Origin: a virus
IMG/VR virus record: IMGVR_UViG_3300006737_000087
Location: 1 to 35,040 of that record
Reading direction: 5' to 3' (one strand)
Length of the DNA stretch: 35,040 nt
Every line of letters starts with the position of its first letter. The stretch's first letter is position 1. Positions 1 to 17,149 of this stretch are shown piece after piece. The translations under genes were made by a program, and so were the position numbers. The notes below the pieces were generated by a model. That model was not told where the DNA came from. It was given only the letters and a program-made list of their open reading frames with translations, and did not search any database.

Positions 1-3
1 GGA

Positions 4-276
4 GTGTGGCACTGGGAGGGTAAGAAGATACCTTTGTTGGGCAACCACTTACCTGTACCTGAGAAGGTCCGACTAGATATGGACCCTGAACGCCAAGAGG
101 TATTGGCTATAGTTGATGCCGCCGATTGGATGGAGGGTGGCGAGTGCGTGTGTGGTGTCAAAGCAGAAGGCATCATACTAGTCACAGAGTTTACAAAACT
201 ATTCCCTGCACATTGCTGTGAGCAAATGGTATGGATGACAGACGAGAGGGATTACAGTGAAATCTACGAAGCGTGA
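4..276 (+). CDS. Unrecognised small protein, possibly 5'-truncated
   Basis: About 90 residues starting at a GTG at position 4. The frame is open to the first base of the window, so the true start may lie upstream. I do not recognise a family. The protein is acidic and has five cysteines: a CVCG pair at residues 48-50, then a CC pair near residue 70 in a HCCEQ context. Metal binding is therefore possible but unproven. Its 3' end overlaps the next gene by 20 bases, which fits the tightly packed transcription unit that follows. It is probably co-expressed with the small accessory proteins downstream. Confidence 0.6.
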   Translation: MWHWEGKKIPLLGNHLPVPEKVRLDMDPERQEVLAIVDAADWMEGGECVCGVKAEGIILVTEFTKLFPAHCCEQMVWMTDERDYSEIYEA

Positions 277-985
277 AGAGACACCGGAAGAACAGATAGA
301 GATGTTGTTAAGTGGCCTAGCCATTGGTGCCCTATGGGAGCCAGCAGGCTACGGCTTGACATACATGAAGATAGGCGATAGAGAAATCGAATTGATGGTG
401 CAACAGGACAGTGCTGAATCAGCACAAGCCCGTATCAGATTCGGTATACTCATGGCTAAGACTGGCTGGCAGGTTATGGAGGACAATGTACAAGTTGCCC
501 CTAGTGAGAACTTGTCGCCGCAGCAACAGTACATGAAAGAACAGATGAAGCGACAGGAGATAGCACAGAGCACTTGGAAGTGTCAGACACCTGAGTGTGG
601 TTGTTTGTTGTCAGCATTTGCTTTAGACAAAGCCGAGTGGATTTTCGTGGGCCAAGATAAGATTGTTGATGACGGAGGCCAAGAGCAAGATGTAGAGATA
701 TGGGCAGTCAATGTCGTCTGTCCTGTATGTGACACAACTATTGCAATGGAACCACTAGAGTATGCACTGATAGCAGGAGATGATTTGATGATGTCTTACC
801 GTACACCTGCTGCTCAACTAGAGGCACTGGACAGACCCACCATCATCAAGATAATGGATTCGGGTAAGGGTAATACAGAGGTAATCATAACAGGTTCCTT
901 CTGTCCATTCAGTGGTACATTGTTGCCACCGCATGTCAGAGGAGCCGTAGTTAGTTTCAAAGAATTGGAGAGTGAAGAGGAATGA
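257..985 (+). CDS. Unrecognised 242-aa protein with a C-terminal-half zinc ribbon
   Basis: The GTG start at 257 lies inside the end of the preceding gene. The N-terminal ~110 residues are acidic/helical and Gln-rich around residues 85-100. The middle (about residues 110-170) has a Cys pattern of C-x4-C-x-C, then about 50 residues later a CPVC pair. This is typical of a treble-clef or zinc-ribbon fold with four ligands. No catalytic motif is recognised. The last codons are Glu-Glu-Glu then stop, and that GAAGAGGAA stretch doubles as the Shine-Dalgarno of the next gene, whose ATG overlaps this stop. A nucleic-acid-binding accessory protein is possible, but that is inference. Confidence 0.75.
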   Translation: MKSTKREETPEEQIEMLLSGLAIGALWEPAGYGLTYMKIGDREIELMVQQDSAESAQARIRFGILMAKTGWQVMEDNVQVAPSENLSPQQQYMKEQMKRQEIAQSTWKCQTPECGCLLSAFALDKAEWIFVGQDKIVDDGGQEQDVEIWAVNVVCPVCDTTIAMEPLEYALIAGDDLMMSYRTPAAQLEALDRPTIIKIMDSGKGNTEVIITGSFCPFSGTLLPPHVRGAVVSFKELESEEE

Positions 986-1200
986 ATAGAGAAGAGTTAG
1001 ATAAGAAAAAAGAACAAATGATGAAACACTATGAAAACACCTTAGTTGCAGATATTTTTGGTGAGTTTTCATTTATCGATCACCTATTAATGACAATTGA
1101 TTTTCTTGAATACGAAATTAAAGATTATAGGGATAAAGAAATGCACAACAATTGGGTATTAGCAGGTGGAGTAAGTAAACCAAGAGGCGAATTAAGATGA
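982..1200 (+). CDS. Unrecognised 72-aa protein, A-rich codon use
   Basis: Starts at an ATG overlapping the previous stop by four bases (ATGA), preceded by GAAGAGGA as ribosome site. The product is charged and probably helical, with a Lys/Glu-rich first 20 residues and no cysteines. Codon use is clearly more A+T rich than the neighbours, which may mean recent acquisition. The first bases (ATGAATAGAGAAG) are repeated at 1203-1215 near the start of the next gene, so both products have a Met-Asn-Arg-Glu motif close to the N-terminus. Function unknown. Confidence 0.65.
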   Translation: MNREELDKKKEQMMKHYENTLVADIFGEFSFIDHLLMTIDFLEYEIKDYRDKEMHNNWVLAGGVSKPRGELR

Positions 1201-1652
1201 AAATGAATAGAGAAGCATTAGAGGAAGAAGCGAAGTCAATACAGGAGCGAGCGAAGATAGTACAGGCTGGACTACAGACCATGAAGAACCTACAGAAGTG
1301 TTTGGTACATGGTCACCGATTCGACTTGCATGTAGAACAAGATGAGTTTCATGAGATACTTCAGATGGGAGTGAGGTGTAGTGTATGTGGAGCAGAGACA
1401 GAACTGTTTGAAAACATTGCACTAGAGATGCCTGACGATGAGATGAAAGTCGGTCGCTTGGCTGCTTTAGGATTAGACGAAATAGATGTAGAGGAGCCTG
1501 AAGAGGAAGAGGAAGAGGAACCTGAAAAGAAACCTACTCCTTATGAATACAACCCAATGGAAAGACAAACACAAGAAGATAACGGGCCGTACAGAGTAGA
1601 CACTAGGCGGTTTATGTTCCCCGGTACACCTTACTTACCACAGGAGGAATAA
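1197..1652 (+). CDS. Unrecognised 151-aa protein: coiled coil, zinc site, acidic tail
   Basis: The ATG at 1197 overlaps the previous stop; an alternative ATG two codons in (1203) gives a Met-Asn-Arg-Glu N-terminus like the previous gene. Residues 1-35 look like a charged coiled coil. A Cys/His region follows (C35, H38, H40, H45, H52, then CSVCG near residue 61), suggesting one zinc site. Residues about 98-115 are an almost pure Glu/Pro tract. The C-terminus contains MFPGTPYL and then ends Gln-Glu-Glu-stop, which encodes the GGAGG site for the next gene. The MFPGTPYL stretch is encoded by DNA that recurs exactly, in inverted orientation, inside the giant structural gene (29867-29887). Function unknown. 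Confidence 0.75.
   Translation: MKMNREALEEEAKSIQERAKIVQAGLQTMKNLQKCLVHGHRFDLHVEQDEFHEILQMGVRCSVCGAETELFENIALEMPDDEMKVGRLAALGLDEIDVEEPEEEEEEEPEKKPTPYEYNPMERQTQEDNGPYRVDTRRFMFPGTPYLPQEE
1613..1633 (+). repeat. 21-base exact match, copy in early gene
   Basis: This stretch (TATGTTCCCCGGTACACCTTA in two parts: TATGTTCCCCGG then TACACCTTA) occurs in reverse complement at 29867-29887. In both genes it is read in the same codon phase as MFPGTPYL, counting the codons that follow. Partner of the entry below. Confidence 0.85.
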
Positions 1653-1654
1653 AT

Positions 1655-1858
1655 ATGGATATAATTGAAAGAGCAAAGCAAGATTTGAAAATGATAGTAA
1701 CCACTAGTTGGATTAACTGGTGTGTAGAAAATGGAATAGATTGGGACAAGAGTTACCCAGTTATCAGTGACTTTGGTACTAAGTTTACAGTACAAATGCC
1801 TGAGAACTTGATACCGGGTCCGTTTGCAACACCAGCAACAGCGGGTGAAGAGGAATGA
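1655..1858 (+). CDS. Unrecognised 67-aa protein
   Basis: The ATG is two bases past the preceding TAA and follows a near-consensus GGAGG at 1643-1647. The product is short, with aromatic residues in the middle and one cysteine. I see no motif or membrane segment. It ends Glu-Glu-Glu-stop; the final 15 bases (GGTGAAGAGGAATGA, 1844-1858) are identical to the end of the zinc protein at 16437-16598 and serve as ribosome site for the overlapping next gene. It looks real from spacing and ribosome sites, but its function is unknown. Confidence 0.65.
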   Translation: MDIIERAKQDLKMIVTTSWINWCVENGIDWDKSYPVISDFGTKFTVQMPENLIPGPFATPATAGEEE

Positions 1859-2124
1859 GCAGAAACATACGAGCACAGTTTGTCGATCTAGCAGAGGAAG
1901 TATTAGCAGAGGCTGACGAAGCACTGTCCGTTGATGTTATCATTGACAAAGTTGCTGCTAAAGCACTGACCAAGAAACTGAAAAGTGGACGCAAGCCTAG
2001 TAACAGATACTTACAGGAGATTTCCAACCGCACTGTCAATCATTTGTTTAGAGTAGACAAGCGGTTTGCTAAGTTTGCTCAAGAAGAGTGGCGTGTCAAC
2101 TTATGGACACTATCGGAGGAATGA
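1855..2124 (+). CDS. Small helical protein, possible winged-helix/HARE-HTH type DNA binder
   Basis: 89 residues, ATGA overlap with the previous gene. The pattern is a helix with a DLAEEVLAEA core, a turn, another hydrophobic helix (VIIDKVAAKAL), a basic segment with several Lys/Arg (about residues 42-52), and an aromatic C-terminal strand-like part ending VNLWTL. This order resembles small HARE-HTH or winged-helix domains of archaeal transcription proteins. The resemblance is only by eye and weak. It could regulate this transcription unit, but no operator is visible. It ends Ser-Glu-Glu-stop with an embedded GGAGG for the next gene. Confidence 0.65.
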   Translation: MSRNIRAQFVDLAEEVLAEADEALSVDVIIDKVAAKALTKKLKSGRKPSNRYLQEISNRTVNHLFRVDKRFAKFAQEEWRVNLWTLSEE

Positions 2125-2129
2125 ATATG
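2115..2129 (+). promoter_or_regulatory. Gene-junction cassette, copy 1
   Basis: GGAGGAATGAATATG: the last codons of one gene (Glu-Glu-stop), a strong Shine-Dalgarno (GGAGG) and the next ATG packed into 15 bases. Exact copies lie at 2243-2257 and 2338-2352, and a variant (TAA in place of TGA) at 1643-1657. It fixes the start of the next gene at 2127. Confidence 0.8.
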
Positions 2130-2252
2130 AGTAAAAAGTATATGGCTAAAAAAGGACGCAGAAGATTTGATAATAACGGATATGAAAGCCCCGTATGGAA
2201 AGCATATTGGGCTAAAATAGACGCAGAAGAAAAAGCAAAACAGGAGGAATGA
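2127..2252 (+). CDS. 41-aa basic micro-protein
   Basis: Reads ATG (2127) to TGA (2250-2252), flanked on both sides by the same GGAGGAATGAATATG cassette, which is the main reason to accept it. The first 15 residues are strongly basic (KKYMAKKGRRRF) and the rest is mixed with three aromatics before an Ala/Lys/Glu helix. No cysteine and no membrane segment. The basic N-terminus may suit nucleic-acid or acidic-protein binding, but that is a guess. A+T rich compared with the large genes. Confidence 0.6.
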   Translation: MSKKYMAKKGRRRFDNNGYESPVWKAYWAKIDAEEKAKQEE

Positions 2253-2257
2253 ATATG
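2243..2257 (+). promoter_or_regulatory. Gene-junction cassette, copy 2
   Basis: Second exact copy of GGAGGAATGAATATG; identity with copy 1 extends to 18 bases (to 2260). It provides the ribosome site and start of the 30-aa zinc peptide at 2255. Confidence 0.8.
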
Positions 2258-2347
2258 AGTTGGATTGAAGAATGGTTTCCACCCGAATGCACCAAGTGCA
2301 TGAAGTTCGGGAAGGAATGCAAGTGTAAAGAAAAAAAGGAGGAATGA
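2255..2347 (+). CDS. 30-aa cysteine micro-protein (zinc knuckle-like)
   Basis: Reads ATG (2255) to TGA (2345-2347). The whole product is one tryptophan/acidic N-terminus followed by CTKC, six residues, then CKC and a Lys/Glu tail. Four cysteines in 13 residues fit a single bound zinc ion. The perfect ribosome-binding cassette before it and another after it argue that it is translated. It is among the shortest of a series of cysteine-pair proteins in this window. Function unknown. Confidence 0.6.
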   Translation: MSWIEEWFPPECTKCMKFGKECKCKEKKEE

Positions 2348-2352
2348 ATATG
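2338..2352 (+). promoter_or_regulatory. Gene-junction cassette, copy 3
   Basis: Third exact copy of GGAGGAATGAATATG. It decides the start of the next gene: the ATG at 2350 has proper spacing from GGAGG, whereas the in-frame ATG at 2344 directly abuts it. Confidence 0.75.
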
Positions 2353-2631
2353 GAAAAGGACATTGGTAAAGCATATCCACAATACATTGTATGGCGTAAA
2401 CCTGCTACAAGCAAGCGCCACAAAGGTAAGATGGAAGCAGTGCTTACCAAGGTCTATCCACCAAGCGGTTCACAAGTGGACATCAGATTACGCAACATCA
2501 ATACAGGTGGGTTTACTAGAGAAGGTGTACGCCTGTCCTTAGAAGACGCAGTGTCTTTGAGCAAAGCACTGTCGAGACTGGTCGAACACTTAGAGGAAGA
2601 GAGGGAGAGTGAAGAGGTTGTTACTGGCTGA
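2350..2631 (+). CDS. 93-aa protein, weakly PC4/ssDNA-binding-like
   Basis: Start chosen at 2350 because of ribosome-site spacing. A basic N-terminal third (about residues 10-30) is followed by strands around VDIRLRNI, a short GGF turn, then GVRLSLEDAVSLSKAL and a Glu-rich helix. The order IR, glycine turn, REGVRLSLED, hydrophobic helix resembles PC4/YdbC-type ssDNA-binding domains (strands ending in a G-I-S-L-T-x-E helix). This is a visual resemblance only. The C-terminal Glu/Arg tract supplies the purine-rich ribosome site of the overlapping gene at 2609. Confidence 0.6.
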   Translation: MEKDIGKAYPQYIVWRKPATSKRHKGKMEAVLTKVYPPSGSQVDIRLRNINTGGFTREGVRLSLEDAVSLSKALSRLVEHLEEERESEEVVTG

Positions 2632-4084
2632 AGCAGCAATGCTGTCACGCAGACTCAAGGAGTCCTATACAAGATGGAGGCGTGAAACCGAATCAAGATC
2701 GGATGCCTTCAAAATATCAATCAAAGCACTGAAAGACAGACTCAGCGAGCGGGCTGAAGTAATTGAAGATGTGATAGATATACTCTATCCAAAGTATTCT
2801 AAATACGAGCAGCAGTTTGTTTCAGTCCTTTGGGTCAGAGACAATGTGTGTACTGAGTTGGGTATATCACCTATACACTGGAACACAGTCATGACTGGTA
2901 AGCCAATCGTTCCTCTTCTAGCAACCGAGTCTTCTGAGATAGGAGGCGAGGGCTGGACAATCAAGCAGGCACTGATGGCAATGCATCGTATAGAGGACGA
3001 GGGCGTACTACCTATGTCCCAAAACATGAATGAGGATGAGGCGCTGCTGTTTTGGTCTAGGGCACTGGGCGAACAGGAGCCAATGCCAATCGATAGGTTC
3101 TTGCAAATGCTTTCGTATCTACCTGAGTCAAACGGCATAACCAATCTACAAAGCATTCGCCACCTACTGACTACCATGAGTCCTCAAGAGGTAGCAATCA
3201 AGATACTACACAAGGAAATGATTACACCCAACAACGAACTATTCCTACAGCCGGGTCAACCATTCGTAGCACCGATCTATCAAGCATGGTCTTCGATGGT
3301 AGCGCCACCTGCTGTATACGCTGATGTGATGAAGGGGTCGAGAAGATACTTACACATCACTGAGTTCCCAAAGGGGTCATTCAGGGGCACCATCTATTCA
3401 AGAGACAGACAGATTGTAGGCAAGATGCACACATTCGATCTGCCCTTCAAGGTGGAAGCAATTGTAGAGATAGAGATGTCGGGTGACAAGATTACCAAGA
3501 TAACTGATGCCTACTCAATTGGAGAGGACTGGGGTGTTTACAAACTAAATAGGGCCGAGCGGATTTCTATGGCGAATAGTTTAGAACCAAGCGTACCAGT
3601 TGATGGTGGTAATCTGATAGAGAGCGGGTCGGACATCGGCTCTCTGTTGAACCAACTAGACGGTAGAGAGCGACTGCGTTTAGTTAAGTCCGGCCCAGTG
3701 GAGATGCGTGATAGCAACGGATGGGTTGTCATACAACAGGCGTTCCACATACACTTCTTAGTAAGTGCAATCCGTAAGGATAAGGAATTCGACACAATCC
3801 TACGCCTGTCTGTCTTAGATGGTTATGAGACATTTGAGGTAGGCGAAAGCAGAATCCCGACTGATGTAGCCCAACACATAAGAACAAGGCTGGGTCAACA
3901 GGGGGTGCTTGCGGGGAAATCTTGGATGCCTATAGACGAATATGGTTTGGTTGTAGTAGCCGAAGTAACCGGCTTTGATCTTGAGAAGATGAAAGCCACA
4001 CACTTGAATATACTATATGCAGATGATACACTGGGTTACAGTGATACATCACAACTAACAGATTTGATAGAATTAGCGGAGTGA
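2609..4084 (+). CDS. Divergent ATP-dependent DNA ligase-like protein, canonical active site not visible
   Basis: 491 residues from a GTG preceded by GAGGGAGA; it overlaps the previous gene by 23 bases. An in-frame ATG at 2639 lacks a ribosome site. Overall order resembles archaeal ATP-dependent ligases. A helical N-terminal domain contains a SPQEVAIKIL helix near residue 190 (compare the 'L-SP-EA' helix of ligase DNA-binding domains). A PGQPFVAPI stretch near residue 215 recalls the PGxPvxPMLA lead-in to the adenylation domain. The C-terminal OB-like part has VVVAEVTGF and a final DDTLGYSDTSQLTDL, recalling the 'R-DK-P-D-x-TL-EL' end of ligases. The nucleotide-binding KxDGxR motif is absent; a KGSFRG sits roughly where it would be. 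It may be an inactive or strongly altered ligase, or something else. Confidence 0.4.
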   Translation: MKRLLLAEAAMLSRRLKESYTRWRRETESRSDAFKISIKALKDRLSERAEVIEDVIDILYPKYSKYEQQFVSVLWVRDNVCTELGISPIHWNTVMTGKPIVPLLATESSEIGGEGWTIKQALMAMHRIEDEGVLPMSQNMNEDEALLFWSRALGEQEPMPIDRFLQMLSYLPESNGITNLQSIRHLLTTMSPQEVAIKILHKEMITPNNELFLQPGQPFVAPIYQAWSSMVAPPAVYADVMKGSRRYLHITEFPKGSFRGTIYSRDRQIVGKMHTFDLPFKVEAIVEIEMSGDKITKITDAYSIGEDWGVYKLNRAERISMANSLEPSVPVDGGNLIESGSDIGSLLNQLDGRERLRLVKSGPVEMRDSNGWVVIQQAFHIHFLVSAIRKDKEFDTILRLSVLDGYETFEVGESRIPTDVAQHIRTRLGQQGVLAGKSWMPIDEYGLVVVAEVTGFDLEKMKATHLNILYADDTLGYSDTSQLTDLIELAE

Positions 4085-4407
4085 GAAAAATGAAGAGATA
4101 TGAAATGAAAGGGAGTGAAGAATTAGAAAGACTCAAAGAACAGGTCAAGAAGTTGAAAGAGGAAACTGAATACTTGAAAAAGCAGAAAAAATGGGAGCAT
4201 GAGGTGTTAATGTACATGGAGGATGAGGATTTCTCATATGATGGGTTCCTGTATTATGTGGATAATGCAGGTTGGTGTAATGAATGTGATTCCGTGTCAG
4301 TAACCGAACAGCATTTACAAGGGGGTAGAACCCTTGAAAACCCTAATGCTGATGGTGAATATGAATGCTATTATTGTTGGCAAAAAAATGAGGATGAGAA
4401 AGTATGA
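4081..4407 (+). CDS. Coiled-coil zinc-binding protein, 108 aa
   Basis: The GTG start at 4081 overlaps the previous stop (GTGA); an ATG at 4090 is an alternative. Residues about 10-45 form an uninterrupted Lys/Glu/Leu coiled coil. Residues 60-100 carry CNEC and, some 30 residues later, CYYC, a standard zinc-ribbon spacing, with aromatics around. A+T-rich codon use compared with the ligase-like gene upstream. A dimeric nucleic-acid- or protein-binding factor is plausible; function unknown. Confidence 0.7.
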   Translation: MRKMKRYEMKGSEELERLKEQVKKLKEETEYLKKQKKWEHEVLMYMEDEDFSYDGFLYYVDNAGWCNECDSVSVTEQHLQGGRTLENPNADGEYECYYCWQKNEDEKV

Positions 4408-4928
4408 ACATATTCGTATTAGATAAGAACCCTGAGACAGCAGCAATAATGCACTGCGACAAGCATGTGCCTAAGATGTGCGTAGAAGCAGCACAGATGA
4501 TGGCTTCAGCCCTGCGTAGACATGGTGCTACCGATGAGCAGATGCCACTGACTAAGAGTGGCACACCCTACAAGGGAGGCTACGCTTACCACCCATGCAC
4601 AGTATGGGCTGGTGATAGCGAAGCCAATTTCATTTGGCTTGCTCGTCATGCAATAGAATTGTGTGTCCAATACGAAAATCGCTTTGGCAAAGTTCATGCT
4701 TGTAGAGACCCAATACATTCGATGATTGGATTGATACCTTTGTTTACCGACAAATACCCAAGTCCTAAAGCAGCACTCACACCATTCGCACAGGCTATGC
4801 CTGACAAGTATCGTGATGATGATGTGGTCAAAGCATACCGAGCATACTACCATTCTAAGCAATTCGCCACATGGGACAAGGGAATACTTGCTCCTAGTTG
4901 GTGGCGAGGCGTAGAGGTGATTAGGTGA
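4404..4928 (+). CDS. Conserved viral protein of the MNIFVLD...HCDKH family
   Basis: 174 residues, ATGA overlap. The N-terminus MNIFVLDKNPETAAIMHCDK followed by HVPKM and a helix with AAQMMASAL is a pattern I recognise from many phage and large-virus genomes (MNIFVxDxxPxxAAxxHxDKHVVKMxxETAQ). Other family-like parts are HPCTVWAGDSEANFIWL, LTPFAQAMPDKYR and AYRAYYHSKQF. Conserved His, Cys, Asp and Arg residues suggest an enzyme. Some databases label relatives as pyrimidine-dimer glycosylase-like, but I cannot confirm that and do not assign it. Its place between zinc proteins and the clamp loader would fit DNA metabolism or repair. Confidence 0.75.
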   Translation: MNIFVLDKNPETAAIMHCDKHVPKMCVEAAQMMASALRRHGATDEQMPLTKSGTPYKGGYAYHPCTVWAGDSEANFIWLARHAIELCVQYENRFGKVHACRDPIHSMIGLIPLFTDKYPSPKAALTPFAQAMPDKYRDDDVVKAYRAYYHSKQFATWDKGILAPSWWRGVEVIR

Positions 4929-5071
4929 GTTGTTGCCCGTATTTTATACATGGAAATTGCCAAGCAGGTTGGAGTGACGCAAAGGTATCTATTGACGAAG
5001 CCGAAGATGGGTCATGGACTCTATGGGCTTGCGATGGTTGCGGAACTGAATGGAAAGAGGTGACGGCATGA
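4925..5071 (+). CDS. 48-aa zinc-ribbon micro-protein
   Basis: GTG start at 4925 overlapping the preceding stop (GTGA), TGA at 5069-5071 overlapping the RFC start (ATGA). The overlaps on both sides are the strongest evidence that it is real. The product begins MSCCPYF, has a further Cys at residue 12, and ends with CDGCGTEWKEV, a typical half zinc ribbon. Trp and acidic residues lie between the metal-ligand groups. Function unknown; translational coupling to the clamp loader gene is likely. Confidence 0.65.
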   Translation: MSCCPYFIHGNCQAGWSDAKVSIDEAEDGSWTLWACDGCGTEWKEVTA

Positions 5072-6012
5072 TAGTATGGAGAGAGAAATACAGACCAAAC
5101 AAAATAGACGACCTAGCAGGTTGTAAGGAATTCAAAGAAGCGGCCAAGTCTTGGCTAGCCAAAGGTAGTCTACCAGCAAATATGCTGTATGTAGGTCCAC
5201 CCGGTGTAGGCAAGACCAGTGCAGCGTATGCACTAGCCAAGGAGATGTACGGAGACTACTTCGATCCATCCAACTTCATTGTAACCAATGCAAGTGATGA
5301 GCGTGGTATCGATTTCGTCAGAGAACTAAAGCACATGGCTAAGCAGAAAGGCATAGGAGTCAGGAGGCGCATATTCGTATTGGATGAAGCAGACTCACTG
5401 ACACCTGCGGCACAGAAGGCACTGAGGCAAGTGATGGAGGACAGTCACAGAACTGCGATATTCATATTGACAGCGAATGACATCTCTCCGATACACAAAG
5501 CAATCAGAGACAGATGCCTCACATTTAGATTCAAACCCCTCGCTGATGAGGAGGCAAGGAAGAAACTGTTGGAAATACATACGGCGGAGAACTTGCCTAT
5601 TCCGTGGCGAGAACAGTATACTATGTTGAACCGCTTAACCAACGGTAGTTTGAGACAAAGTATAGACATTTTAGAGGGTACACCTAAGACAGATGAAGGC
5701 CTGTCTCAGAAACTCAGACGCAGTACTGAGAGCCTGAACAAGGCAGCACTCAGTTTCGTTGGAGGAGACTACCAGCGACTAGCGGAGAACATGAAAACCA
5801 ACCTCAGAGAGGGCAACAGTCGTGTCGCAACACTAATAGGGTTGAGACACCGAGGGCGGTCTCTACTGGAGGGTGGTCAGGACGATTGGTACGCATTTAT
5901 GTTAACATATGGAGAGTTTATCCTGTTAGCAAACTTGTGGCCCGATGATGACGATTCCTTTGTAGACTACTTTGTAGCGAAATTAAGGAAAAACAAGGAG
6001 GAAAAAATATGA
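5068..6012 (+). CDS. rfcS: Replication factor C small subunit (clamp loader ATPase)
   Basis: AAA+ subunit that loads the PCNA ring at primer ends. 314 residues, near the usual archaeal RfcS length of about 320. Start taken at the ATG at 5068 (MIVWREKYRP, the conserved N-terminus WxEKYRP), overlapping the previous stop. Walker A GPPGVGKT is at 43-50, Walker B LDEAD at 105-109, sensor 1 TAND near 137, DRC at 148-150 in place of the arginine-finger SRC, and sensor 2 GSLRQ at 193-197. The C-terminal third is the collar domain, fairly divergent. No RFC large subunit is seen here, so the loader may be a homo-oligomer, use the host large subunit, or have its partner outside the window. The Lys-Glu-Glu end provides AAGGAGG for the next gene. 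Confidence 0.95.
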   Translation: MIVWREKYRPNKIDDLAGCKEFKEAAKSWLAKGSLPANMLYVGPPGVGKTSAAYALAKEMYGDYFDPSNFIVTNASDERGIDFVRELKHMAKQKGIGVRRRIFVLDEADSLTPAAQKALRQVMEDSHRTAIFILTANDISPIHKAIRDRCLTFRFKPLADEEARKKLLEIHTAENLPIPWREQYTMLNRLTNGSLRQSIDILEGTPKTDEGLSQKLRRSTESLNKAALSFVGGDYQRLAENMKTNLREGNSRVATLIGLRHRGRSLLEGGQDDWYAFMLTYGEFILLANLWPDDDDSFVDYFVAKLRKNKEEKI

Positions 6013-7292
6013 ACGACGAGAGACAATTACCGGAGGGCGTACTAGAACGCCTACAAGGATATGCAGAAAGAGCACAGAAAAAGATAGGAGAGGCAGCAAA
6101 CGAGTATTTTGCTTGGATAGAGCAAGAGTTTGCAGTGTCTGACTGGAAAGACGAAGACGATGATTTGCTGGTCGAGTGGGCAGAAATGTTTACACTTGAA
6201 ACACGCAATCTTGGTAGCACTGGCGGCGGTGGCCGTGAAACAGTTACCTTCGTTGGTCAGTTTGTAGGCATTGATGACAAAATCAATGACTATAGAGAAA
6301 ACGCTAGAGAGAAGGCAATTGCGTCTTACCGTAACAACTCCGGCCAAGCCATCGATAATGGCGTGGTTGGTATAGTTAAGGCGAAAGACGGAGTATGGCA
6401 TGTCAACGGCGAGCCTACCAAAGAACGCATCGATGGAGACAAACTACCTTGGTTTGGACTACAAGTCGATGGCGATCTCATCTGTCTAATGAATGACAAG
6501 GGTACACCTATGGCACCTGAAAGCAGAGTCCGTAACCTGTACTTGCTTGGTAACGATAAGGAGAACTTCAACAGAGCAATTAGCATTTGGCGTGTTTCCC
6601 TTACAGGTAACAACATGTCTGAAGAATACGAATTCGGCAGACCAGTAACCTGTCAAGTAATCAGGTCTAACAAGGAAGGCGCTGATACAGTTTACACTAA
6701 CAGGGACTTCAGCAAGACTATGGTATACACTGACTCTTTCGTAGAGGAAGATGATAGAGTACTACTTAGGCCTGAAAAGTATCTAGTTAGCACAGGTATG
6801 CACGAATCATATGTCGAAATAGACGAATTGACTGAGGCATACGAAGAGCGCAAGTTACAGAGCAGTAGCGGTAACTACTATGGTCCTACTATCATCACTA
6901 AGGGATATGTCAGTAGACTCAACCTAGAGCCTATGGACAATCAATACGACCAAACAGGTCGTGCATTTAGATTGAGCGTAACCAGCCCTAGCCTACAGCG
7001 TAAGTTCGGCAGGGACTCAGCAATGTCTGAAGTAACTGTATGGGTACCGGGCCGCATCTACGATGACAGTCATCCGTTTGAGTTTAAGGACAATTACGGC
7101 GAATGGCAACCATATGCAGAAAAGACACCAGTAATCATATTTGGTCGCATTCGTATGAGTGTATACAATGACCAAACCACCCCTAACCTAACAGCATTCG
7201 GTATCTATGTACCACCTCGTACAGCGAGACCGGGTGCTAAGGGTGGAGACACTAGCATAGACCAATTCAAGAACAACGGAGATGAATACTGA
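6009..7292 (+). CDS. Probable RPA-like ssDNA-binding protein
   Basis: 427 residues, start overlapping the RFC stop and preceded by AAGGAGG. The N-terminal 60 residues are acidic and helical; a Gly-rich turn (STGGGGRET) near residue 72 leads into strand-rich sequence. At least two OB-fold-like stretches are visible: VTFVGQFVGI near 80, and SEVTVWVPGRIYDD near 345 followed by TPVIIFGRIRM and LTAFGIYV. The last 25 residues look disordered. OB-type folds plus a place between clamp loader and RecA-like ATPase favour a single-strand binding role in replication. No zinc-finger cysteines of typical RPA41 are present. Assignment is inferred from fold pattern and context. Confidence 0.5.
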   Translation: MNDERQLPEGVLERLQGYAERAQKKIGEAANEYFAWIEQEFAVSDWKDEDDDLLVEWAEMFTLETRNLGSTGGGGRETVTFVGQFVGIDDKINDYRENAREKAIASYRNNSGQAIDNGVVGIVKAKDGVWHVNGEPTKERIDGDKLPWFGLQVDGDLICLMNDKGTPMAPESRVRNLYLLGNDKENFNRAISIWRVSLTGNNMSEEYEFGRPVTCQVIRSNKEGADTVYTNRDFSKTMVYTDSFVEEDDRVLLRPEKYLVSTGMHESYVEIDELTEAYEERKLQSSSGNYYGPTIITKGYVSRLNLEPMDNQYDQTGRAFRLSVTSPSLQRKFGRDSAMSEVTVWVPGRIYDDSHPFEFKDNYGEWQPYAEKTPVIIFGRIRMSVYNDQTTPNLTAFGIYVPPRTARPGAKGGDTSIDQFKNNGDEY

Positions 7293-8308
7293 TGGCAGGA
7301 TTTGGAGCAATGAAGAAGAAGGATGAAGAGAGAGCAGAAGCGATCTTCCAAGCGGAGGCAGCAGAAGTAGACAAGCAGGTTGTAGAGGCGAAAGCCCCTG
7401 CACCTGCTCCTGTTTCTAAGAGCAACTTCCCTAACTTGGAAGCAGAGTTCAAAGAACAGACTAACCCTAACAGGATAAGACCTAGCAAGGTATTCTGTGG
7501 AGTTGTCGGACACGAAGGTACTGGTAAGTCCGGTATCGTGATTGACGGACACATGCACAAATACCCTGAAGGTATGCTGTGGGCAATGGATTTCGATAAC
7601 GGAGCAATGGCCTGTAAAGAAGCACACTATCCGGGTTCTGATGAGAGAGTAAGAGTATGGTCTCCTTGGGTTATGCAATCCAATGATAGAACATCTTACG
7701 ATTATCCTGAAACACACAATCGTGTAATGGACTTACTGCGCTATGCTGTAGAGTACGCACAGAAGCAATCTAAGGCAGGCTTTGGGGGCAAGAAACTCAA
7801 CACCTTCTTAGTTACATCTGTAGACCAATTCGATCAAGTCTGTATGAACAACATGAAGATTTACGACTTAGAGGATAACAATGTAAAGGATGCAATTGGT
7901 GCTGCCAAGGTTGAAGTCAACCAAGGTATCGGTTGGAACTGGAACATCAGGTCAACTAGGTTCAAGCAGATGACAGCATTGTGTCAGAAACTAAACGCTC
8001 TAGGCGTGGATGTGTACTGGGAAACCCACCTCAAAGAGGACAAGGATGGCAAAGTCGGATTCGACGGCTGGAAGTTCGCATGGGAGAAGAGTGCAAACAA
8101 CGACCTGTTCCAAATCATTTGGTGTCACGCCCGTAAGGTTCGTGGCGATGATGGTAAGGAAACAGGCGAGATTAGACACACAGCAGAGTTCTTCAAAGAG
8201 AAAACCAATTCTGACCTAAAGGGTCAGGAGAGGCTGTACTTCGTCACCAAGAAGGGCGAGCCTGCTCAATGGCACGGCTTGTCTGAACTGCGTGAAGGGG
8301 TTCTCTGA
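7292..8308 (+). CDS. RecA/RadA-like P-loop ATPase
   Basis: 338 residues; the ATG shares one base with the previous stop (TGATG). Residues 1-60 are charged and Ala/Pro-rich, likely a flexible linker. Walker A is GHEGTGKS at 73-80. A Walker B-like strand LVTSVDQF lies near 170, and WETHLKED near 250 would be the switch strand after a long helix. The general form fits single-core-domain RecA-like ATPases carried by many viruses for recombination or as UvsX/RadA substitutes. It lacks the N-terminal HhH domain and the second half of typical RadA motifs, so strand-exchange activity is not certain. After this gene comes the only non-coding gap on this strand. Confidence 0.7.
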   Translation: MAGFGAMKKKDEERAEAIFQAEAAEVDKQVVEAKAPAPAPVSKSNFPNLEAEFKEQTNPNRIRPSKVFCGVVGHEGTGKSGIVIDGHMHKYPEGMLWAMDFDNGAMACKEAHYPGSDERVRVWSPWVMQSNDRTSYDYPETHNRVMDLLRYAVEYAQKQSKAGFGGKKLNTFLVTSVDQFDQVCMNNMKIYDLEDNNVKDAIGAAKVEVNQGIGWNWNIRSTRFKQMTALCQKLNALGVDVYWETHLKEDKDGKVGFDGWKFAWEKSANNDLFQIIWCHARKVRGDDGKETGEIRHTAEFFKEKTNSDLKGQERLYFVTKKGEPAQWHGLSELREGVL

Positions 8309-8419
8309 GTAAAGTGATTCACTAGGGGTTAATCCAGTAATAAGTGGCAAACTTTCAAAACTCGGAGATAGTGTCTTCTCTTGTACATGAACCGCTTTCC
8401 CCACCCGTGAGGTGATAAT
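8309..8419. other. Only intergenic gap of the forward gene cluster (111 bases)
   Basis: All other + strand genes overlap or nearly touch, so this gap stands out. It contains a weak inverted repeat AGTGA-T-TCACT near the left end and, just before the clamp gene, GAGGTGAT as ribosome site. Two very short open frames are present: 8371-8415 (14 residues, GTG after CGGAGATA) and 8387-8410 (7 residues). I see no convincing TATA/BRE element. It might hold an internal promoter, a leader or an RNA-processing site for the clamp-polymerase genes. Confidence 0.5.
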
Positions 8420-9178
8420 ATGACAAGTTTCAAAGTAAGTAACAAAGATCTAGCCCAGTTCATTACAGGGTTTGGCAAAGAATTGCCTGACATTGTATTC
8501 AGGGTCAAAGATGAATATGTAGAATCGGCAGTGGGTAAAGACACCCACTACCTTAGACGACGACTGGCTGTTAGAGAAGCAGAGGCTGGCAACATTGCAG
8601 TAAGCGATGTATCTAGGCTACTTGCATTCTTGAAGGCCACAAAGACCGGAGAGGTCAGCATCAATCAGATGGGTAAGACATCAGTGTTGCATGTAGCCTG
8701 TGGCAAATCCACACTACAGTTGCCGACATCATCCTACCTGACTACTCAGAAGCAATTGCCTCTGATAGAAAGATTGGTTGGTGAAGGTGAAACTAACATG
8801 TGGCGGAGTTGGGCCAATTTTGACCTAGACTGTCATGGTATAGTAAACGGAGAAGACTTCGCCCCTGCGGCACAGTTTGACAAAGTAATTGGTGGCAAGT
8901 TTTCCTGTAAGTCAGCATTTGACCCATCAGGTGAGTATGTAGTCAGTGCGGGTTCAAAGGCCAAGGGCAAGATGTTTGTCCGTGTACCTATCACCAACTG
9001 TGAATCTAATAACGATACAGTGAACTCAGCATTTGCTTACTGGTTACCATCGCTACTGGCTAACCTACCACCGGGACCACTCAATCTCCACACAGGGGAT
9101 GAAACAGTCCTTGTGATAGAGCAGGGTGACACTGGTTTCCTACTAGTCGTGATGGATCAAGAGTACGAGGAGGACTGA
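8420..9178 (+). CDS. pcn: PCNA-like DNA sliding clamp
   Basis: 252 residues, the expected PCNA length (about 245-250). Start at ATG 8420 after GAGGTGAT. The two-domain clamp pattern is recognisable although divergent: an N-terminal FRVKDEYVESAVG segment, a central linker around TSSYLTTQKQLPL, and a second half with FDKVIGGKFSCKS. The final strands are LPPGPLNLHTGDETVLVIEQGD then FLLVVMDQEYEED, which parallel the 'V-L-F-D-PL-I' and 'L-APR-EE' end of archaeal clamps. It should encircle DNA and tether the polymerase encoded downstream; the clamp loader lies upstream in the same unit. The last codons (GAGGAGGAC) form the ribosome site of the next small gene. Confidence 0.8.
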   Translation: MTSFKVSNKDLAQFITGFGKELPDIVFRVKDEYVESAVGKDTHYLRRRLAVREAEAGNIAVSDVSRLLAFLKATKTGEVSINQMGKTSVLHVACGKSTLQLPTSSYLTTQKQLPLIERLVGEGETNMWRSWANFDLDCHGIVNGEDFAPAAQFDKVIGGKFSCKSAFDPSGEYVVSAGSKAKGKMFVRVPITNCESNNDTVNSAFAYWLPSLLANLPPGPLNLHTGDETVLVIEQGDTGFLLVVMDQEYEED

Positions 9179-9180
9179 GT

Positions 9181-9318
9181 ATGTTCTATCAGTGTAACTG
9201 TGGTAAAGACATACCTTATCACAAAGGTAACAAAAAGAAGCCACTTTGTCCACATTGTCATTGCTACCAAGGCGAAGGCGGTTGTAACGACTGCGAATGT
9301 TTGGGGGAAGAGGAGTGA
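9181..9318 (+). CDS. 45-aa cysteine-rich zinc micro-protein
   Basis: ATG at 9181, two bases after the clamp stop and behind GAGGAGG; TGA at 9316-9318 overlaps the GTG start of PolB. Cysteines come in CNC (residues 5-7), CPHCHC (23-28) and CNDCEC (35-40) groups: eight Cys and two or three His in 45 residues, enough for two zinc ions. It ends Gly-Glu-Glu-Glu-stop like other small genes here. Lying exactly between clamp and polymerase genes with overlap, it may be a replisome accessory, but there is no direct proof. Confidence 0.7.
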   Translation: MFYQCNCGKDIPYHKGNKKKPLCPHCHCYQGEGGCNDCECLGEEE

Positions 9319-11669
9319 TTATCAACACCTACCGACCCGACCCTGAAGGACACGACCACATATACAAGAGATGGCGTGACTCTGAAGGAAACCTGATAGA
9401 AGAGCGAATCAGTGATTTTAAGCCGTACTTTTGGATTTTAAACAAAACGCCTGAGAGAATTGTACAGCGTGTTCTGTCACGATACCCCGGTAGTTCGATT
9501 GATAAAGAGGACACTGCGATTGCTCTAAAGACAGAGGACACACTGGTTAAGGTATATGCCTACAGACAAGCAGATGTCAGACAGATGCAAAAGGAGTTTG
9601 GTAGGACTTGGGAAGCAGACATGAGTCTAACCGACAGGTACCTCATAGATGAAATCAGAGAGATGCCTGAGTGGAAACCCCGTGTATGGCACTTCGATTT
9701 GGAATGGGATCCCCATGACAACTTCACAACTGTTATGTCTGTAGTGGACAACTACAACAATAGGAATGTCACATTTTGCTGGAGCGAAGAAACAGCAGAA
9801 ATAGAAGAGAAAGGGTTCGTAAGAAAAGAGGAACGCCATGTAAAGCATGAAGGTGCCGACTTTGTTTACGAGCGTTTATTCTACACTGATGAAAAGTCAA
9901 TGCACAGTGCCTTCTTAGATTATTTAGAAGAGTGCAACCCCGATATACTCATAGCCCACGCTATCATGTGGGCAGATTTACCTCACCTAGTCAGTAGACT
10001 GGATGAGTTCAGACGACTCAGCCCTCTTGGCCGTGTACTGAAACCACCTAAAGGAGAGCGTGGTTACAAGTACACTGCTCAGCCAATCATAGGCAGATTG
10101 TGCTTCGACACAGCAGCGCCCTACGACAGTGGTACAGGCTTTGAGCGTGTATGGAAGGATAGCGGTAAACCGCAATTAGCCAGTCGAAAACTAGACCACA
10201 TTACAGGCCCCGATGTATTGAATTACGGCGGCAAATTTGACATGGATGTATTTACAGGATGGAGAGAGAGATTTGATGACTATTGTGATTATTGTATGCA
10301 AGATACTTTACTACTCAAAAGAATGGATGAAGAAAATCATGTCCTAAATTTCTTCTTATCATTACAGCGTATATGTGGTGTGACATTCACTTCATGTCAC
10401 AATGTAACTAGATTCGCCCGTGGCCTGCTCAGCAGACGCACACACTGGAAGGCACCTACAAGGCCTGATGTAGAGAAACAGGACTACGAGGGTGCATACA
10501 TTCCTCCGCCCAAACCGGGCAGGTACGAGGGTGTAGCGTGTGTAGATTACAAGGGACTGTACCCTTCACTCATTTTATCACATTCACTATCATGGGAAAC
10601 CCAAGTAGATCGAAGTAGAGCCGGTGAAGACGGTGTACACAAGTTACCTGACGGCTCTTGTTGGGACCAATCCAAGAAGGGGCTACTTCCTCAAATTGTA
10701 GAGGAAATGTTTGAGTTGCGTGATGAATACAAAGGTAAGATGAAAGCGGCAGATAGCCCTACAGAGAGGGCTGGCTGGAATACAATGCAACTTGCTACCA
10801 AGCGAGTGATGGCGAGCCTATACGGTATGGTCGCCAGTGCTCATTGGGGCTGGTGTGACTTCGACATAGCCAACGCTATCACAGCCTGTGGTAGAGAGGC
10901 AATCAAATTCCTAATGGAAGAATCAGAGGCTCAGGGCTACGAGGCTCTGTATGGTCACACTGATTCAGCATTCGTGAGTGTACCATTCGATGAGGCACCG
11001 GCATTAGCCAAGCATCTGACAGACAAGGTACAAGTTGATCTCAACGCAAGTCACCTATTCGTGGAGTTTGAGGCATATATGCCATACTGGTTAGTAGCGG
11101 GGAAAAATCTCTACTACGGTATATGCTCTTGGCCCCCTGAAGATGAGGGTAAGCCTAAGTCGGCTCGATTCGGTAAGATTTCTACTCTCGCACCTATCTC
11201 TCGCAACTTAGAGAGAGATGTGCTAAACTTGGTATGCCAAGGTGCATCAGAAGCAGATGTAATAGACCATGTTAGGCCTATTGCACTCAAGATACAGAAG
11301 GCCAAGGTCGATTTGAAAGAGGTAACTGGAGTAACTAGAATATCTAAGAAATTGAAGGATTATGCCAAGCCTACCTTGGGTGCTAAGGCTGCTGTGTATT
11401 ACAATAAACACATGGCAGAGCGATTCAGCCAGCCCAAGTTTGATGAAGGTGACAGTGTACCGTGGGTATATGTTGCCTCTTCTCCTGACTGGGCCGCACC
11501 TACAGATATAGTCTGTTACAAGGACATATCTGAGATGGAGGGCTTTACGCTCGATTGGGAGAAAATGGTTGACAGGTTAGTTAAGCGCAAGGTCAAGCCG
11601 ATATTCCAAGCCCTTGAATGGGACTTAGAATCGGCTTCAGGTGCAGCACGACCAAAGAGGTATTGGTGA
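9315..11669 (+). CDS. polB: Family B DNA polymerase with proofreading exonuclease domain
   Basis: 784 residues. The GTG at 9315 is chosen because it overlaps the preceding stop and follows GGGGAAGAGGA; it gives MIINTYRPDPEG, like other PolB N-termini. Exonuclease motifs: Exo I FDLEW (D128, E130), Exo II region AHAIMWADLP, Exo III YCMQD (Y326, D330). Polymerase motif A is DYKGLYPS (D411), motif B KRVMASLYG (K496, Y503) and motif C YGHTDS (Y546, H548, D550). Thus the catalytic Asp of motif A and the second Asp of motif C are kept, but the first Asp of DTD is His and the motif B Asn is Ala. It should be the replicative polymerase, working with the clamp and loader upstream. Confidence 0.96.
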   Translation: MIINTYRPDPEGHDHIYKRWRDSEGNLIEERISDFKPYFWILNKTPERIVQRVLSRYPGSSIDKEDTAIALKTEDTLVKVYAYRQADVRQMQKEFGRTWEADMSLTDRYLIDEIREMPEWKPRVWHFDLEWDPHDNFTTVMSVVDNYNNRNVTFCWSEETAEIEEKGFVRKEERHVKHEGADFVYERLFYTDEKSMHSAFLDYLEECNPDILIAHAIMWADLPHLVSRLDEFRRLSPLGRVLKPPKGERGYKYTAQPIIGRLCFDTAAPYDSGTGFERVWKDSGKPQLASRKLDHITGPDVLNYGGKFDMDVFTGWRERFDDYCDYCMQDTLLLKRMDEENHVLNFFLSLQRICGVTFTSCHNVTRFARGLLSRRTHWKAPTRPDVEKQDYEGAYIPPPKPGRYEGVACVDYKGLYPSLILSHSLSWETQVDRSRAGEDGVHKLPDGSCWDQSKKGLLPQIVEEMFELRDEYKGKMKAADSPTERAGWNTMQLATKRVMASLYGMVASAHWGWCDFDIANAITACGREAIKFLMEESEAQGYEALYGHTDSAFVSVPFDEAPALAKHLTDKVQVDLNASHLFVEFEAYMPYWLVAGKNLYYGICSWPPEDEGKPKSARFGKISTLAPISRNLERDVLNLVCQGASEADVIDHVRPIALKIQKAKVDLKEVTGVTRISKKLKDYAKPTLGAKAAVYYNKHMAERFSQPKFDEGDSVPWVYVASSPDWAAPTDIVCYKDISEMEGFTLDWEKMVDRLVKRKVKPIFQALEWDLESASGAARPKRYW

Positions 11670-11673
11670 TATT

Positions 11674-12630
11674 ATGACAAGAGATTTTGAAGCATACAAG
11701 AAGTCCACATACAAGTGGGAACCGGGGCACGAATTACATCTACGAATCACTAAATCTAGCCTGACTAGTGACTTCGATTACTGTCCACAGCAGTATCATT
11801 ACAAGCGTAGAGAGGGACGCAAGACTCCTCAAACAGACGCTATGGTTAAGGGTATCAATGTACACAATGCTATGGAAGAGTTCTATGTATATGTTAGACC
11901 CAACATCAACAAAGTACTGAAACTACTCAATGAAAAGAAGAGAGATGAAGCACTCGATTTGTTTATCAAAAGTGTACCTGAGCCTGAAGAGCCTTGGGAA
12001 CTAGGAGAAGGCCCAGTTATAGTAAAAAGGCTGAATTGGGAGTTGGATCGACTAGAGGCTACACAGGGTGAAAACTTCTTACCAGTCATTAACGAAGATG
12101 AGATACATGTATTCACTGAGCGTGAGTTTGTACATAATGGGGAAACTCACATTGTACCTATTCACTTTGCTGGTATGATAGACCGTGGATTTGAAAACGA
12201 TGATGGCACTATTAGCCTGATGGAGTTAAAGACAGGTAAATGGAAGCAGAAGTGGGACAAGAAAAAGAATGATTGGGCCGATGATAGATACAAGGTACAG
12301 GGCATGCGCAAAGAAATGGCATACTACGCTGACTTACTCAAGATGGCAGACCACCCACTACAGAATGTAACTCATTGGGGCTGGTTCTATCCTGACGGCT
12401 CCTGTGGCGATGATATGGAAGGTGTCAGGTTCATAGATAGTTGGAAGCACGAGAAGGTAGTTAAGTCCTATTCTAAGTCCTTAGATAAGGACATCAATAA
12501 TCTGTTAGAGGCCTACTTTACAGACAACTTTCCACCAAAACCACACCAAGGTAAATGTGCTTGGTGCAGTTTTACTGAAGATTGCCCCGCATGGAAACCC
12601 GGCGGTGAGCATCACTGGCCGAGGTGGTAA
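11674..12630 (+). CDS. Cas4/RecB-like PD-(D/E)XK nuclease with probable iron-sulfur cluster
   Basis: 318 residues from ATG 11674, four bases after the PolB stop and behind GGTGAT. Nuclease motifs: H64, the G-M-I-D-R strand (D170), MELKTGK (E184, K186) and a later QGMRKEMAYY helix (Q209, Y217-218). Four cysteines fit a 4Fe-4S cluster in the Cas4/AddB manner: C37 in FDYCPQQY and C295, C298, C304 in CAWCSFTEDC near the C-terminus. Family members are 5'-directed or end-processing exonucleases. No cas1/cas2 or repeat array is present, so the role is probably in viral replication, recombination or end processing rather than CRISPR adaptation. Neighbours (PolB, primase) support this. Confidence 0.88.
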   Translation: MTRDFEAYKKSTYKWEPGHELHLRITKSSLTSDFDYCPQQYHYKRREGRKTPQTDAMVKGINVHNAMEEFYVYVRPNINKVLKLLNEKKRDEALDLFIKSVPEPEEPWELGEGPVIVKRLNWELDRLEATQGENFLPVINEDEIHVFTEREFVHNGETHIVPIHFAGMIDRGFENDDGTISLMELKTGKWKQKWDKKKNDWADDRYKVQGMRKEMAYYADLLKMADHPLQNVTHWGWFYPDGSCGDDMEGVRFIDSWKHEKVVKSYSKSLDKDINNLLEAYFTDNFPPKPHQGKCAWCSFTEDCPAWKPGGEHHWPRW

Positions 12631-16435: not shown

Positions 16436-16436
16436 A

Positions 16437-16598
16437 ATGGAAAAAAACTGTTCTCTTTGTCATGCTAAGTTTGAGTACAAAGATGAAGGTATAAGTGGGT
16501 ACTTCGGTCTATTGAAAGTAGATTTCTGCGACTTCTGCCTTGCCTGTATGGGCGCTATGCATGAAAGCCTCAAGGTTTTACTAGGTGAAGAGGAATGA
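16437..16598 (+). CDS. 53-aa zinc-ribbon micro-protein
   Basis: Start at ATG 16437 behind AAGGGGG, one base after the upstream stop. CSLC at residues 5-8 and CDFCLAC at about 31-37 form a zinc-ribbon pattern with a Gly/Phe-containing hairpin between. Ends Leu-Gly-Glu-Glu-Glu-stop; its final 15 bases are identical to the end of the gene at 1655-1858 and make the ribosome site of the next gene. Function unknown. Confidence 0.7.
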   Translation: MEKNCSLCHAKFEYKDEGISGYFGLLKVDFCDFCLACMGAMHESLKVLLGEEE

Positions 16599-17149
16599 AA
16601 GGCAAGCACTTTGTCGTGTTCGCCTATGGTAGTGAATTTTCACATATGGTGAATGCCCCCGAAGTGGTAATTGTCACTAGTGATGATTACTTATCGGTAT
16701 ACACTAGTCACCGATCTTATATCAATTCAAAGCCAATTTCTTATTCAAAAATACAAGACGAAATGGCCTATATCGTAGATAATGGAGGTATATTGGTCCT
16801 AAAGAATACTCAGCCCTATGGCCTGAATACTTCTTGGACAGGTATAGACAAAGGTAGTCCTAGTGATATGGTTGACCATATTGAAAGGCATATCATGGAT
16901 ATAGATTTAGAGATAAAGCGTATTTCGGAACAGCAATTAAATCTAAACGATTTAGATTTGGAGTATTCCCTGCATACAGAAATGTATGCCCCTATTTGGC
17001 AGAAGGGCAGTGAACTGTCAATAATTAAGCACTGCATCGATGATGCGAATATCATACTCACCCTAGTACAGCGCTGTAGTAGCGCAGGTGATATAAGGGT
17101 GAGACTAAGAGACAAGGGAGTACCAAAGGAGTATGATGTAGAATGGTAA
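16595..17149 (+). CDS. Unrecognised 184-aa protein
   Basis: ATGA overlap with the zinc protein. The N-terminal half is strand-rich (HFVVFAYGSEF, EVVIVTSDDYLSVYTS, GGILVLKN), the C-terminal half helical (DMVDHIERHIMDIDLEIKRISEQQL, then a long amphipathic helix around IIKHCIDDANIILTLVQRC). No metal cluster or catalytic motif recognised. It overlaps the chaperonin start by seven bases, so the two are probably co-translated; a chaperonin cofactor or client is an idea only. Confidence 0.65.
   Translation: MKGKHFVVFAYGSEFSHMVNAPEVVIVTSDDYLSVYTSHRSYINSKPISYSKIQDEMAYIVDNGGILVLKNTQPYGLNTSWTGIDKGSPSDMVDHIERHIMDIDLEIKRISEQQLNLNDLDLEYSLHTEMYAPIWQKGSELSIIKHCIDDANIILTLVQRCSSAGDIRVRLRDKGVPKEYDVEW

Follow-up and report, generated by a model that had tools for sequence, protein, structure and literature searches.

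The left part of a 35,040-base virus record (IMG/VR record IMGVR_UViG_3300006737_000087; the whole stretch is called the window here) is a compact early and replication region on the plus strand, in which a 15-base cassette, GGAGGAATGAATATG, recurs at the junctions of very small genes. By comparing this region with eight relatives, we observed a turnover of small genes in fixed slots between conserved genes, limits of homology that lie at the junctions, junction sequences typical of each slot, units whose genealogies conflict with those of their flanks, and one chimeric junction. The best explanation overall, which we hold to be reasonably probable, is that small genes turn over as slot-bound units through crossovers in a junction made of a Shine-Dalgarno (SD) sequence, a stop codon, and a start codon.

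A repeated junction between small genes

The features of the window that bear on the cassette and on the first slot (slot A, from gene U to gene D) are as follows; W and x numbers are our labels for genes and L numbers our labels for loci.

1643..1657, plus strand: variant cassette GGAGGAATAAATATG, joining the 151-amino-acid W4 to the 67-amino-acid W5
1855..2124, plus strand: gene U (W6, 89 amino acids), conserved gene bordering slot A on the left; copies in an alignment of 8 are 60-66% identical to that of the window
2115..2129, plus strand: cassette copy 1, the slot A connector at the end of U
2127..2252, plus strand: cargo micro-gene W7, 41 amino acids; its L006 homologue is followed by a different unit
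2243..2257, plus strand: cassette copy 2, at the end of W7
2255..2347, plus strand: cargo micro-gene W8, 30 amino acids, Cys-rich; it has other neighbours in L005, L007, L008, and L011
2338..2352, plus strand: cassette copy 3, at the end of W8 and leading into D
2350..2631, plus strand: gene D (W9, 93 amino acids), conserved gene bordering slot A on the right; copies in 8 relatives are 84-99% identical to that of the window

The initial annotation had listed three exact cassettes and a variant at 1643, each with a stop, an SD, and a start, and we recovered all of them, the variant with a single mismatch. In the frame of the upstream gene, the exact cassette reads GAG GAA TGA (Glu Glu stop) with GGAGG as the SD, followed by 'AT' and then ATG. 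The SD sits within the Glu-Glu codons that close the upstream gene, and the next ATG lies 2 bases past the stop; each gene thus carries, in its 3' end, the ribosome site for its successor. On either side of this 2-base gap, the cassette is coding sequence. Stop-start gaps are mostly -4 or +2 bases, a length that would leave no non-coding room for a promoter or terminator. Because our own caller, used to set gene starts, favors those with an SD, finding an SD is to some extent a product of the method; the results below on slots and breakpoints do not rest solely on the choice of gene start. The sequence ATGAATATG holds two ATGs, of which the first or the second is the candidate start.

The exact copies link, in order, genes of 89, 41, 30, and 93 amino acids, of which only the 41- and 30-amino-acid genes are micro-genes. 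The copy at 1643 is not consecutive with the rest, as the junction after it (near 1845-1858) is of another type, and the earlier description of copies joining four successive tiny genes has to be corrected accordingly. The variant 15-mer also closes an unrelated gene (W5) before U in L009.

Allowing up to 3 mismatches, the window contains 9 cassette matches against a mean of 1.09 in dinucleotide shuffles (0/100 shuffles reached 9), which rules out a chance repeat under that null. Dinucleotide shuffling is, however, the wrong null for a cassette; the stricter null is given by the other junctions of the same virus group. With all junction types pooled, the 12-mer GGAGGAATGAAT had a model probability of 9e-5, and three identical copies arose in 0/20000 simulations of 28 junctions. 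Within the class of junctions with a 2-base stop-start gap, the probability was 0.04, and three identical copies arose in 6265/20000 simulations, again of 28 junctions. Three exact copies are unremarkable by themselves under this null because GGAGGAATRAAT is a common junction type in the virus group. This counts against our explanation: repetition alone is weak evidence, and the case is therefore carried by the comparison with relatives.

Small genes come and go in fixed slots

The 491-amino-acid W10 and gene D, each used as a query, led to an identical set of nine contigs. The U-to-D interval of L004 is the same as that of the window, so that nine distinct viruses were compared, namely the window and L005-L012. 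All contigs are metagenome assemblies and several are fragments; L011 has some N, and L005 begins inside U. Deeper scans with alignments of W10 and U found no contig beyond those nine, and no other viral or cellular holder of U, D, or W10 was found in genome_contigs.

The order of conserved genes is fixed across the nine viruses, and small genes come and go between them. Variable genes have a median length of 71 amino acids and a mean GC content of 40.6%, versus 314.5 amino acids and 45.5% for core genes. In slot A, the cargo is W7 and W8 in the window, W8 and x36 in L005, W7 and x39 in L006, W8 alone in L007, L008, and L011, x31 and x52 in L009, x63 in L010, and x31 and x77 in L012. The initial annotation had viewed the genes between cassettes as exchangeable modules and had proposed a comparison with related viruses. 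This view held: the eight relatives also carry one or two small genes between U and D, in different combinations, and the boundaries of the units fall on the junction. The left junction of the slot, at the end of U, is the exact 12-mer GGAGGAATGAAT in 7/9 viruses (L005 and L007 differ). An inserted unit was also seen elsewhere: in L009 alone, a 44-amino-acid gene, x56, separates W14 from W15, two genes that directly follow one another in the remaining eight viruses. At this insertion the left junction was kept intact, and a new SD-stop-start sequence precedes W15.

Each slot has its own connector

Two further slots downstream, slot B (W10 to W12) and slot C (W12 to the clamp loader), behave like slot A. 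Their features in the window are listed below.

2609..4084, plus strand: W10, 491 amino acids, conserved gene bordering slot B on the left; copies in 8 relatives are 91-100% identical to that of the window
4090..4407, plus strand: W11, 105 amino acids, slot B cargo of the window; elsewhere x5, x13, x25, x47, x51, x54, or x64
4404..4928, plus strand: W12, between slots B and C, with a weak pyrimidine-dimer-glycosylase match; lost in L010
4925..5071, plus strand: W13, 48 amino acids, slot C cargo, ending KEVTA*
5057..5070, plus strand: slot C connector GAGGTGACGGC then ATG, before the clamp-loader gene
5068..6012, plus strand: W14, clamp-loader small subunit gene, right border of slot C

We observed that each slot has its own junction sequence and that, as a consequence, unrelated proteins end in slot-typical residues (EE*, VEA*, or EVTA*). 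In slot A, 3/8 cargo families end GGAGGAATGAA, and their proteins end EE. In slot B, the sequence ahead of the next ATG is AGGTGGAAGC, or differs from it by one base, in 5/8 families, with proteins ending VEA, AEA, or VKA. In slot C, 5/7 families end GAGGTGACGGC in at least one virus, with proteins ending EVTA.

To quantify this, we shuffled slot labels over the 14 bases before the next start, using 39 cargo tails in 23 slot-family combinations with homologues excluded. The cargo of L010, which has no W12, was placed in slots B and C by its neighbors, and the tail of x30 in L010 is shifted by a mis-set start. Tails from the same slot were more alike than tails from different slots by 1.44 bases over 14 nucleotides, and 1/20000 label shuffles gave an excess as large. 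Over the last 7 nucleotides, which lie mostly outside the SD, the same-slot excess was 1.49 bases (0/20000 shuffles). Because junctions into a core gene could share that gene's leader, we ran the shuffle again with cargo-to-cargo junctions alone (16 tails, of which one was added from L157); 456/20000 shuffles were as extreme over 14 nucleotides and 100/20000 over 7 nucleotides. Among these 16 tails, 9 carry the connector of their own slot and none carries the exact connector of another slot.

Outside its own slot, the slot B connector AGGTGGAAGCATGA has a single occurrence, in the far-upstream region of L006 (contig G003, 1466-1479), where it ends a homologue of W11, as if unit and connector had moved together. 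W12 has a weak Pyr_excise match and a strong phrog_624 match and occurs with two different C-terminal tails; distant second copies of its family lie upstream in L007 and L011, and another family member is present in L004. Of the cargo families examined, 12/25 contain a CxxC pair of the kind seen in small zinc ribbons (in the window at 2255-2347 and 4925-5071, and in cargo of L005, L007, L009, and L012). Pfam support for these is weak, the Zn_Ribbon_1 match of x17 (E 1.4e-4) being below cutoff.

Homology stops at the junction

L006 and L007 are sisters, with 92-99% DNA identity in 11 core genes compared other than W12 (83%), yet the cargo of all three slots differs between them. At the left edge of slots A and B, their similarity crosses the junction and ends at the start codon. 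On the right side, it resumes ∼11 bases before the start of W12 and 15-16 bases before the start of the clamp-loader gene.

We then surveyed all pairs of homologous genes that have different neighbors and equal gaps; these pairs share sequences and are not independent. Among 138 pairs with a downstream edge, 83 lose homology at the ATG (3-6 bases beyond the junction), 6 lose it in the 5 bases ahead of the ATG, and 21 keep it further on. Among 223 pairs with an upstream edge, 61 keep 8-13 bases (the SD stretch), 13 keep other lengths between 5 and 20 bases, 45 end at or within 5 bases of the ATG, and 1 runs further. The edges of homology thus fall between the SD and the start codon.

One junction combines the sequences of two slots. 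L010 is missing W12, and x5 leads directly into x30; the junction consists of x5's own tail through CAGGTG, followed by ACGGCATGAATGG, as found before x30 in L008. We read it as a probable crossover of the slot B and slot C connectors within the shared AGGTG.

Units have their own genealogy

We compared units with their flanks at comparable synonymous codons, scoring those in which the amino acid is shared but the DNA differs; these comparisons share sequences and are not independent. Between the window and L005, 10/22 such codons differ in W8 and 8/89 in the adjacent D gene (p 2e-4). Between the window and L008, the relation is the reverse: 3/26 differ in W8 and 64/135 in the flanks U and D (p 4e-4). 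W7 differs at 3/34 codons between the window and L006 (flanks 49/133), and x31 at 2/79 between L009 and L012 (flanks 28/132). The genealogy of W8 conflicts with that of its flanks: in the window, W8 is closer to L008 while the flanking D is closer to L005, so the unit has been replaced.

How units may be exchanged

We propose that the cassette is a translation junction of a polycistronic early region, in which GAG GAA TGA would double as the SD of the next gene. A unit would run from the ATG of a small gene to the ATG of the next gene, and would therefore use the SD in the tail of its upstream neighbor and supply one to its downstream neighbor. The gain, loss, and replacement of units in their slots would take place through crossovers within the ∼5-19-base SD-stop-start junction. 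As the junction sequence within a slot tends to stay the same, a unit that ends in it could be inserted or deleted without breaking translation or operon continuity. The SD presumably works and couples translation.

It is likely, if short of proven, that recombination uses the repeated junction as its substrate, and that the junction is more than a spot at which randomly formed joints persist. The competing idea is that joining is random (illegitimate), that survivors are those that keep a stop, an SD, and a start, and that junctions resemble one another by convergence on a favored ribosome site. We regard this as rather unlikely, although several observations are in keeping with it: the within-class probability of 0.04 per 2-base-gap junction for GGAGGAATGAAT, the position of nearly all GGAGGAATRAAT copies at start codons, and the many terminal slot A junctions that have other SD sequences. 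It does not readily explain why slots A, B, and C differ in junction within the same genomes, including the last 7 bases mostly outside the SD (0/20000 shuffles; 100/20000 for interior junctions), nor how the slot B and slot C sequences came to be combined in one chimeric junction. Ready-made blocks of cargo could also be moved by ordinary homologous recombination within the long conserved genes on either side, with the cassettes as passengers. The backbone is indeed strongly mosaic: between the window and L008, W14-W20 (window 5068-12630) are 99-100% identical and the upstream W1-W12 75-88%, a step that points to a recent large recombination, and W9-W10 are more alike than W1-W6 in most pairs of L006-L012. 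Flank recombination alone, however, cannot create new pairs such as W7-W8 versus W7-x39, x31-x52 versus x31-x77, or x5-W12 versus x5-x30. At the joints of these pairs the junction is the only shared sequence, and new adjacencies without a long shared flank are already seen; we consider this explanation improbable. A dedicated mobile-element or site-specific recombination system that acts on the small genes, with the cassettes as its sites, would account for the direct repeats that flank several units and for the existence of occupied and empty sites. It is very improbable, as no recombinase, integrase, or transposase match above chance was found among the proteins scanned, and the junctions vary between slots with only the SD-stop-start logic in common.

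Several findings weigh against junction crossovers as the route of unit turnover. We had considered a motif confined to slot A and rejected this, as it is present throughout the variable early region of the group, with 10 copies in one record and 6 in another; over the loci scanned, GGAGGAATRAAT occurs in 34 distinct contexts, directly followed by a start codon in 33, and the slot A motif could reflect selection for a good ribosome site. Its frequency at variable-gene junctions (19/162) does not differ significantly from that at core-core junctions (0/14; p 0.37). The initial annotation had identical cassettes on both sides of the small genes; this largely stands on the left side of slot A, whereas the junction into D is the 12-mer in only 4/9 viruses (the window, L007, L008, and L011), the other five having another SD-stop-start sequence there. 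Tails before a core gene may be that gene's own leader, and the interior-only test is weaker. Homology had already ended inside the unit at 28/138 downstream edges and could not be traced to the start codon at 103/223 upstream edges. The L010 crossover is a single junction, and the window/L008 breakpoint at slot C is bracketed only between -12 and ∼+188 of the clamp-loader start. Shared stretches at the joints are short, only about 5-19 bases. The earlier suggestion that the repeats provide homology for gain or loss of units accordingly draws support from the L010 chimera and the slot-typical junctions, and we infer it with the caution that such short stretches and so common a motif call for.

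Comparison with known systems

PeSLs, or mobile regulatory cassettes, of T4-type phages were reportedly described by Arbiol in 2010 and Comeau in 2014. According to excerpts of PMC3950731 and PMC4503421, they are short elements repeated among variable early genes of small size and were suggested to supply homology for modular shuffling; the cassette likewise repeats between small variable genes. PeSLs carry an early promoter and a stem-loop in non-coding gaps, whereas the cassette lies within the ends of coding sequences, as a translational junction whose stop and start are 2 bases apart or overlap, and its sequence is specific to the slot. We found 15 inverted pairs in positions 1-6000 of the window, none of them at the three exact cassettes. 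The archaeal tailed virus HGTV-1 has a repeated motif before most left-half genes, which the same excerpts (PMC3950731, PMC4503421) compare with PeSLs and suggest for genome shuffling; unlike that motif, the cassettes here have no inverted repeat and no non-coding room.

Together with PeSLs and the HGTV-1 motif, the nearest known systems in principle include the start-associated sequences (SAS) found in mycobacteriophages of cluster K and Microbacterium phages of cluster EF (excerpts of PMC3203893 and PMC7302621). These are short ribosome-site repeats before many unrelated genes that are conserved beyond the SD and sometimes hold the upstream stop codon. Similarly, our repeat stands directly before the start codons of several unrelated genes (the 33/34 contexts above), and its conservation extends outside the bases that pair with 16S rRNA, as the last 7 nucleotides are slot-typical (0/20000). 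SAS differ in their 13-bp consensus and often in an extended inverted repeat, and the excerpts (PMC3203893, PMC7302621) propose a role in translation but not unit exchange. The SAS consensus GGGATAGGAGCCC is not matched by the junction sequences listed here. The lambdoid nin region also has tightly packed small early genes with stop/start overlaps (ATGA) that vary between relatives; slot-typical repeated connectors are not described for it in excerpts of PMC8022706 and PMC4378225. Morons are single genes between genes that are adjacent in relatives, with a differing base composition, and x56 in L009 lies in such a position. Morons are described with their own promoter and terminator (excerpt of PMC4378225), whereas the units here would rely on the ribosome site of their neighbors.

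Among titles and opening lines of abstracts on microhomology or boundary-sequence models at ribosome sites, we recognized none that describes slot-specific connectors, which is not proof of absence. The text of one magrovirus survey, PMC10160649, has no mention of recombination, mosaic, modular, or hypervariable. What sets this case apart from these systems is that the repeat is a translation junction inside coding ends, is slot-specific, and can be tied to unit boundaries in relatives.

The virus group and other genes

The group consists of ocean viruses, probably of archaea (magrovirus-like), as judged from gene content. The window encodes a clamp-loader small subunit, a family-B DNA polymerase, a PD-(D/E)XK nuclease (matched by W20), an ERCC4-type nuclease, and a chaperonin. 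The gene content behind the archaeal assignment is the chaperonin, the clamp loader, the ERCC4-type nuclease, and the polymerase, which has 23.5-25.5% identity to those of haloarchaeal tailed viruses. The INPHARED set yielded nothing that matched the W10 protein, and nothing that matched window 1-8000 at the DNA level. W10 is among the best conserved proteins of the region, yet it is without a Pfam, PHROG, or INPHARED match. Gene U has a HARE-HTH Pfam match that is weak (E 0.0012) and does not reach the curated cutoff.

With W15 as the query, 20 loci were found: the nine contigs again, the close L151, L157, L160, and L169, and seven at ∼35% identity. In these distant loci (L162-L168), no repeated connectors were recognized by eye; GGAGGAATRAAT and the slot C pattern had 1 match each in four L162-L168 records, versus 36 and 15 in the other twelve. 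In L006, the family-B polymerase gene (15760-18110) is split into two open reading frames by a stop-SD-start stretch, near residues 431-441 of the 98%-identical L007 homologue; this is either a natural split or an assembly error.

A virus-encoded annealing protein would help the case for the repeats as a recombination substrate. W16 (7292-8308) matched a Sak4-like annealing family only at E 1.1, had no Pfam or PDB sequence match, and gave a poor predicted model (mean predicted local distance difference test score, pLDDT, 52). We set this argument aside for want of a significant match and a good model.

Implications

How viruses swap genes without damage to an operon is debated, the options being recombination at a short shared sequence and selection among joints formed at random. 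With its mapped boundaries, its slot-typical junctions, and one chimera, this group makes both views testable with more genomes. More broadly, and more tentatively, the stop/ribosome-site/start junction could be a standard connector, specific to a slot and handed on by each micro-gene, through which short-homology recombination assembles new arrays in translational register; we rate this idea a little below an even chance. If it is true, unrelated proteins in one slot would share their last two to five residues as a side effect. The slot-typical tails show that shared C-terminal residues can stem from a DNA junction and not from protein function. The junctions also offer a practical route to micro-genes of 30-100 codons, which annotation often skips, and the turnover of such small genes may serve adaptation to the host.
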